A program made the translations under genes and the position numbers. A model generated the notes under the pieces. The model was given only the letters and a program-made list of their open reading frames with translations. It made no database searches and was not told the DNA's origin. Below, in pieces: positions 33,438 through 33,829 of a stretch of 64,000 bases of DNA (its first letter is position 1; each line of letters starts with the position of its first letter). Source of the stretch: Caldisericia bacterium (GTDB taxonomy: Bacteria; Caldisericota; Caldisericia; JAAYUI01); the NCBI GenBank assembly GCA_017992475.1, contig JAGOOO010000005.1:1-64000 (forward strand), read 5' to 3'.

Positions 33438-33581
33438 TTAATGCCTCCCTTCTTCATTTGTTTGATCGGCTTTTCCAGCCGCTGACACTTTCCCGCCCTC
33501 GTATCGTTCGAGCTTTATCTTGTATGCGCGGACGACGGCCGGTGTGAGTGCTTGTGCGAGCTTGTCAAATAGCGTGGTCAT
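33438..33581 (-). CDS. 47-residue microprotein
   Basis: A 47-codon gene with AAAGGAGG 6 bases before its ATG and a stop three bases before the next microprotein gene. The product starts MTTLFDKLAQALTPAVVRAY, a likely amphipathic helix, followed by a charged, flexible tail. No family is recognised. It is the first gene after two tandem terminator hairpins, so its expression should depend on read-through or antitermination. Confidence 0.65.
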   Translation of the reverse strand: MTTLFDKLAQALTPAVVRAYKIKLERYEGGKVSAAGKADQTNEEGRH

Positions 33582-33605
33582 TGTGTTCCTCCTTTGCGGG
33601 AAATT

Positions 33606-33640
33606 AAAAAGGCCCCTTTGCCTTTTTGTGCGCTGGGGCC
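33606..33640 (-). terminator. Second terminator hairpin in the leader of the RIO operon
   Basis: On the minus-strand RNA, GGCCCC (33640-33635), an 18-base loop, GGGGCC (33616-33611), then TTTTTAATTT. It lies directly before the ribosome site of the 47-residue gene. Its 5' arm can also pair with the 3' arm of the first hairpin. Confidence 0.7.
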
Positions 33641-33645
33641 CTGGA

Positions 33646-33681
33646 ATTAAAAAGGCCCGTTCCCTGTTTTGAACGGGCCTT
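33646..33681 (-). terminator. First terminator hairpin after the Asn-rich leader
   Basis: On the minus-strand RNA, AAGGCCCGTTC (33681-33671), loop AAAACAGG, GAACGGGCCTT (33662-33652), then TTTAATT. A strong intrinsic terminator 27 bases after the leader stop codon. Confidence 0.88.
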
Positions 33682-33708
33682 CTAGTTTATTTTATGGTTT
33701 GGTATTGC

Positions 33709-33768
33709 TTAGACTGAGGCTCCGCCCAAAAGATGCGCATTGTTGTTATTGTTTCTCACTCTCATCAT
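33709..33768 (-). CDS. Asn-rich 19-residue leader peptide (candidate attenuator)
   Basis: With AAAGGAGG 4-5 bases before ATGATG, a 20-codon frame encodes MMRVRNNNNNAHLLGGASV. Five Asn codons in a row (AAC AAT AAC AAC AAT) are followed, 27 bases after the stop, by two tandem terminators and then the microprotein and RIO-kinase genes. This is the layout of ribosome-mediated attenuation, as in trp and his leaders with runs of the sensed residue. Asparagine, or tRNA-Asn charging, would be the signal (inference). It could instead be a tiny secreted or signalling peptide. Confidence 0.6.
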   Translation of the reverse strand: MMRVRNNNNNAHLLGGASV

Positions 33769-33801
33769 CGCACCTCCTTTGGCGGAATTTGTTTTGAGGT
33801 G

Positions 33802-33829
33802 ATTCTAGGCGTATTCTCAAGGTTGTCAA
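33802..33829 (-). promoter_or_regulatory. Promoter of the leader peptide / RIO operon
   Basis: On the minus strand, TTGACA (33829-33824), 16 bases, TAGAAT (33807-33802). It gives a leader of about 28 bases before the 19-residue peptide. It runs back-to-back with the rarA promoter. Confidence 0.8.

Follow-up and report, generated by a model that had tools for sequence, protein, structure and literature searches.

Genes and Features at the Locus

The window, i.e., the whole stretch of DNA analysed here, comprises 64 kb of a 79.8-kb contig in the 1.59-Mb draft genome of a Caldisericia bacterium (58 contigs, 74% complete). On its minus strand a promoter, a short leader ORF, two hairpins (H1 and H2), genes for a 47-aa and a 42-aa protein, a RIO kinase gene and a GNAT gene follow one another in this order, and rarA runs from 33885 in the opposite direction to the leader and kinase operon. 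In one Caldisericia genus, 4/4 sequenced species possess the complete set of promoter, 19-codon leader, both terminators and RIO-kinase operon. All coordinates of the window given below lie on the minus strand.

The first structural gene (33581-33438) encodes a microprotein 91-96% identical in three congeners, with nothing significant elsewhere; the second (33434-33306), Lys-rich and with its frame conserved in the four species, overlaps the kinase start, and neither product matches a Pfam or NCBIfam family. The kinase gene (33330-32485, TTG start) encodes 281 aa with a match to PF01163 (E 3.7e-33, 115 bits vs. a cut-off of 22), and the frames of 47 and 42 aa followed by this match bear out the two microprotein genes and RIO kinase that a previous inspection of the letters alone (hereafter, the sequence-only reading) had described. 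The GNAT acetyltransferase gene (32407-31376), which contains two GNAT stretches and is alignable downstream in the four species, is an uncertain member of the operon. The gap between it and the kinase (32485-32407) is highly variable among congeners and holds a hairpin, CCAGGGtCCC...GGGGCCCTGG, devoid of a clear T-run.

Promoter and Leader ORF

The promoter (33829-33802, TTGACA-16 nt-TAGAAT) had been called good, and in fact it matches the consensus at 11 of 12 positions, with hexamers invariant in the four species and a spacer variable at 4/16 sites. Transcription is predicted to start near 33796. Between the -10 box and this predicted start lies CACCTC (33801-33796), likewise invariant in the four species. 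It is similar to the anti-SD core of 16S rRNA and forms the complement of GAGGTG in the leader SD; pairing of CACCTC with that SD was set aside as a regulatory element, since CACCTC is probably upstream of the start site.

The leader ORF (33768-33709) encodes MMRVRNNNNNAHLLGGASV and is led by the SD AAAGGAGG at 33780-33773, followed by ATGATG, the second ATG (giving 18 codons) having the better SD spacing. The frame and the perfect SD had been recognized before, although the length of 20 codons then given counted the stop: there are 19 codons plus stop. The five consecutive Asn codons (AAC AAT AAC AAC AAT, 33753-33739) are confirmed, with 15/15 bases invariant in the four species, all of which also have an unchanged SD and ATG and keep the TAA. 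The peptide itself changes at codon 5 (R/K) and otherwise at codons 18-19 only. The four frame-0 substitutions (R/K, S/P, V/I, and V/S) are all nonsynonymous and none is synonymous, so that selection at the peptide level cannot be claimed. Two hallmarks of the attenuator class are present, namely a short leader ORF with its own SD, situated between the promoter and the first gene, and a cluster of one control codon (the five Asn codons) within it. In genome-wide scans of the host, which covered ~1.56 of the 1.59 Mb, the leader was the sole case among 4,820 SD-preceded short ORFs where a run of at least four identical residues precedes a terminator and a gene.

A further ORF in the +1 frame (MRIFWAEPQSKQYxTIK and stop, 33687-33740) has its start within the last Asn codon and is uninterrupted in 4/4 species. 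It terminates 6 nt upstream of H1, and H1 could not form with a ribosome standing at this stop; lacking an SD, this frame was set aside as a candidate for the true leader.

Terminators and Ribosome Binding Site

As the sequence-only reading had proposed, two intrinsic terminators are predicted directly after the leader, each ending in TTTTT. H1 (33684-33646, segments 3:4) is a hairpin of 13 bp with -22 kcal/mol and z -7.0, whose 13/13 pairs are kept in the four species. H2 (33642-33606, segments 5:6) has 8 bp + 2 bp, -16.7 kcal/mol and z -1.9, and all its pairs are kept as well, two of them via one-sided changes. Judged by sequence and folding model, both would terminate transcription between the leader and the first gene. 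The RBS of that gene (33605-33582) contains AAAGGAGG at 33595-33588 and is invariant at 24/24 bases. The U-tract of H2 ends ~11 nt from this SD, and hence no ordinary promoter fits between them; the operon would then hardly be transcribed except through both terminators, unless these do not terminate. An Rfam scan of the window gave no match at the gathering score to the T-box or other described leader RNAs, on which ground a T-box or other known RNA was ruled out.

Alternative Pairings and Ribosome Position

Segment 1 (33787-33763), which spans the leader SD and start codons, pairs in the untranslated RNA with segment 2 (33731-33710), formed by the last leader codons. The resulting 1:2 hairpin (33787-33720; -24.6 kcal/mol and z -3.1 on free folding) places the SD and start in its 5' arm, the Asn codons in its apical loop and the end of the leader ORF in its 3' arm; one of its 22 pairs is variable, being retained as G-U in one species (L005). 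Segment 2, with an invariant core of 14 bases (33731-33718), has an alternative partner in segment 3 (33684-33667), i.e., the H1 5' arm together with the AAAA of the H1 loop. This 2:3 antiterminator (UUUUGGGCGG(a)GCCU...UCUA with UAGAAGGCCCGUUCAAAA, -18.1 kcal/mol) takes the whole H1 5' arm; its 12-pair core is invariant, and outer pairs are broken in some species. It was overlooked by the sequence-only reading, which had assigned the switch to pairing of the H1 3' arm (33658-33652) with the H2 5' arm (33642-33636), supposed to break both hairpins. That second, 4:5 antiterminator (33658-33636; -10.8 to -12.4 kcal/mol, 7/7 pairs kept) is plausible as a second step disarming H2, but it is too weak to disrupt H1 wherever the ribosome stands on the leader frame, and was therefore rejected as the sole switch.

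Equilibrium folds of the finished RNA with the ribosome footprint masked gave no switch, H1 always being formed and H1 and H2 winning; the E. coli trp leader used as a control fails this test likewise, so that the test was discounted as being without power and replaced by folds of shortened, growing transcripts, in which the RNA ended just before the terminator 3' arm and everything up to the leading edge of the ribosome was masked. Under these conditions, the H1 5' arm is sequestered with a probability of 0.95/0.82/0.87/0.91 in the four species with the first Asn codon in the A site, and of 0.05-0.08 with the stop codon in the A site; the E. coli trp leader, folded likewise as a positive control, yields 0.62 and 0.00-0.03. 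The codon profile shows an ON state that is flat as far as codon 9 in the P site, where the last Asn is the hungry codon, and drops over codons 10-13. The control codons are accordingly placed as in an attenuator, a stall freeing segment 2 and completion covering it, and the mutually exclusive 2:3 antiterminator and 1:2 protector are predicted in all four species. Before H2 is complete, the 4:5 probability is 0.39-0.82 in the stalled state vs. 0.01-0.06 at the stop codon; as H2 is clearly the stronger of the two structures, this second step can work only kinetically. In the absence of a ribosome, about half of the H1 5' arm is sequestered (0.46-0.64, vs. 0.06 in trp), and in this model the operon may be leakier than trp when the leader is not translated.

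Proposed Mechanism and the Nature of the Signal

From this anatomy we consider it likely that ribosome-mediated attenuation governs the operon of the two microproteins and the RIO kinase; that asparagine is, in addition, the natural signal appears somewhat less assured, yet still probable. The Asn-sensing attenuator of the sequence-only reading can thus be retained as far as attenuation with Asn control codons is concerned, for which anatomy, conservation and folding controls give good support, whereas Asn sensing, termination and induction at the leader are what we infer. With ample Asn-tRNA, the ribosome would reach the stop codon and cover segment 2, H1 and then H2 would form, and transcription would end upstream of the operon. 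With scarce Asn-tRNA, the ribosome would halt on an Asn codon, cover segment 1 and release segment 2, which would capture the H1 5' arm (2:3); the H1 3' arm, thus freed, would capture the H2 5' arm (4:5), and the polymerase would read into the kinase operon.

The ON state is equally favourable with the ribosome at any of codons 1-9, and other slowdowns in codons 1-10 would consequently throw the same switch. The sole change in codons 1-14 is from R to K, which retains the +X+ character of the R-V-R/K stretch, and +X+ is a ribosome arrest motif. The same attenuator might hence respond to another signal, such as drug-bound arrest at R-V-R/K, the Asn run then being mainly an unstructured loop; attenuator leaders that sense drugs are known for bmrCD, yxjB and mef/mel, as the respective papers describe (PMC4191407; PMC6851288; PMC4335068). 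We regard this as unlikely, given that drug sensing needs no five identical codons ending exactly at the start of the switch, and that neither the kinase nor the microproteins match a resistance family.

Conservation and Statistical Controls

Among the four species, 15/220 leader sites are variable vs. 126/297 fourfold sites in kinase plus rarA (kinase, 37/106; rarA, 89/191; binomial P ~1e-32). Variation is concentrated in one stretch, picked post hoc, that comprises the leader tail and the spacer to H1 (8/33 vs. 7/187 sites, P 3e-4). All pair cells of the predicted OFF state are kept (188/188), and where pairs vary, four in all, one standard pair is replaced by another. The check suggested earlier, conservation with compensatory changes, came out in part: Asn codons, stop and both hairpins are kept in the four species, but the whole leader is conserved among these four close genomes and there are no compensatory double changes, for which reason covariation speaks neither for nor against the model. 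The loss of the Asn run or of the hairpins by relatives that keep the kinase, previously named as evidence against the reading, is not seen in the three congeners.

Conservation of the entire leader at the nucleotide level, unpaired bases included (paired and unpaired sites are similarly conserved; Fisher P 0.43, not significant), together with a leader frame lacking any synonymous change, would also be expected if the attenuator were controlled by something that binds the leader RNA, perhaps the kinase or the 47-aa protein, with the ORF being incidental. Such control by a protein or RNA seems quite unlikely to us in view of the perfect SD, the conserved start and stop, the Asn run and the ribosome-position geometry, and of the lack of any Rfam family match in the window.

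The 2:3 pairing on which ribosome-mediated attenuation depends was set against 1,000 shuffles per species of the stretch separating the Asn run from H1. The observed 2:3 probability was reached 0-14 times per 1,000 shuffles in each species, and none of the 1,000 per species attained this probability together with the 1:2 energy observed. In the ~1.56 Mb scanned, H1 also ranks first of 239 strong terminator-like hairpins in the degree to which the 57 bases upstream sequester the 5' arm. Unregulated expression, with a short transcript (a small RNA or the 19-aa peptide), tandem terminators and an operon served by constant leak-through, is very unlikely: both terminators are strong at equilibrium and tandem terminators are common, but this leaves unexplained the 2:3 pairing (first of 239 terminators; joint shuffle 0/1,000) and the position of the terminators directly against the RBS of a conserved operon.

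The Kinase and Its Distribution

The kinase carries the RIO signatures SSGKEATVY (P-loop SxGKEA), HGDLSxxN and IDxxQ, which place it among the RIO kinases, and matches RIO3/RIO1 structures at E ~1e-18. Against the model of the PA4780-family RIO1-like proteins (NF041645), it scores 147 bits, below the cut-off of 350. On sequence grounds, it is a genuine, archaeal-like RIO-domain protein, related to the PA4780 RIO1-like family but outside its cut-off.

In a homologue search of 61 genomes (the host's own and relatives), the kinase was found in the three congeners only (94-96% identical) and neither in the sister genus nor in the rest of the class. Its best matches beyond the genus are distant (39% in Armatimonadota, 33% in Patescibacteria, and 28-35% in archaea), and this distribution suggests lateral acquisition. 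The Armatimonadota relative starts inside the end of the preceding gene and has no such leader. Within the same 61 genomes, the full arrangement of promoter, leader, terminators and kinase operon is absent outside the genus, and the leader DNA, the kinase and the 47-aa protein yielded nothing convincing beyond it, the leader DNA giving the four genus loci and otherwise short chance matches only. A search of these genomes for further Asn-run leaders retrieved only the four orthologues, the other matches inspected being ordinary protein starts.

Asparagine Supply

A single tRNA-Asn (GTT) was found in the host genome, and it would read both Asn codons used. AsnRS is present in the genus, its gene lying on a different contig from the operon, and the genus also encodes GatB and a GatE-like protein; AsnA/AsnB were not found over the cut-off in the genus, whose drafts are 69-95% complete. 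Taken together, these data indicate that the supply of Asn-tRNA may rely on asparagine import or tRNA-dependent amidation. The Gat loci (G000 C28:3028-4917 and C50:55166-56584) encode a GatB of bacterial type and, in a frame of 658 aa, a piecewise match to GatB, as expected of an archaeal-type GatE and unusual in a bacterium.

The genes that biosynthetic attenuators control serve in the synthesis, import or tRNA charging of the amino acid being sensed; the present operon contains no Asn-related gene. With no recognisable asparagine synthetase either, we put at about even the chances that the leader is an Asn-tRNA-sensing attenuator with a two-terminator domino that acts as a starvation sensor for a kinase of a ribosome-associated type and not as biosynthetic feedback.

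Comparison With Known Attenuators

In textbook leader-peptide attenuation of trp and his, the genes under control produce the amino acid that is sensed. The Asn leader shares with E. coli trp the four-segment logic (1:2, 2:3, 3:4) in which a ribosome stalled on control codons frees segment 2, and differs from it in the added 4:5 and 5:6 step, in an untranslated state less firmly OFF and in the absence of biosynthetic genes. Drug-sensing leaders such as those of bmrCD, mef/mel and yxjB have, to our knowledge, no homopolymeric control codons. They resemble the Asn leader in that a stall in the leader relieves a terminator before genes unrelated to amino acid synthesis (PMC4191407; PMC4335068; PMC6851288), whereas the Asn-leader operon has no resistance gene. 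A closer likeness is found in the his attenuator of Salmonella/E. coli, for which A-B, B:C, D:E and E:F pairings have been described (PMC4046918): its leader of 16 codons also bears a control-codon run (7 His codons), its six-segment domino (A:B, C:D, E:F vs. B:C, D:E) is alike, and it has the same untranslated, translated and stalled states. Unlike in his, the middle hairpin H1 possesses its own U-tract, leaving two terminators to pass, the control codon is Asn, the gene downstream is a RIO kinase instead of those of its own pathway, and the phylum is different.

The system is a predicted variant of ribosome-mediated attenuation, with the attenuation logic apparently attached to a RIO kinase. 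In a 2010 survey, leader-peptide systems were known only from Proteobacteria and Actinobacteria before the survey itself added Firmicutes (PMC2965389). In the open-licence literature, we found no description of an Asn leader attenuator, of an Asn signal paired with a RIO kinase, or of a leader-peptide attenuator in the Caldisericia phylum.

RIO kinases of archaea and eukaryotes serve in small-subunit maturation. Bacterial RIO1-like kinases (PA4780 family, RIOB) share the RIO fold and signatures with the present kinase, which has IDMAQ in place of the IDxPQ of RIOB (PMC7749174); the function of RIOB is still to be determined, and bacterial RIO kinases have no known role (PMC7749174). If true, the proposed attenuation would give a first clue to how a bacterial RIO kinase is regulated, its synthesis taking place when Asn-tRNA is in short supply, and would point to a role of the kinase in translation stress or ribosome maturation; that Asn starvation induces a ribosome-directed kinase is an attractive but unproven idea.

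Terminators abutting an RBS are rare, the scan of the host genome giving 36 loose matches, of which ~10 were convincing on inspection. A terminator at the leucyl-tRNA synthetase gene was rejected as a second attenuator in the host genome because it lies directly 3' of a tRNA gene. Other strong terminators right against an RBS were observed at G000 C50 ~75376 (minus; pyrB-like), C33 ~58716 (minus) and L105:6185, and the genes at these three places may be attenuator-controlled.
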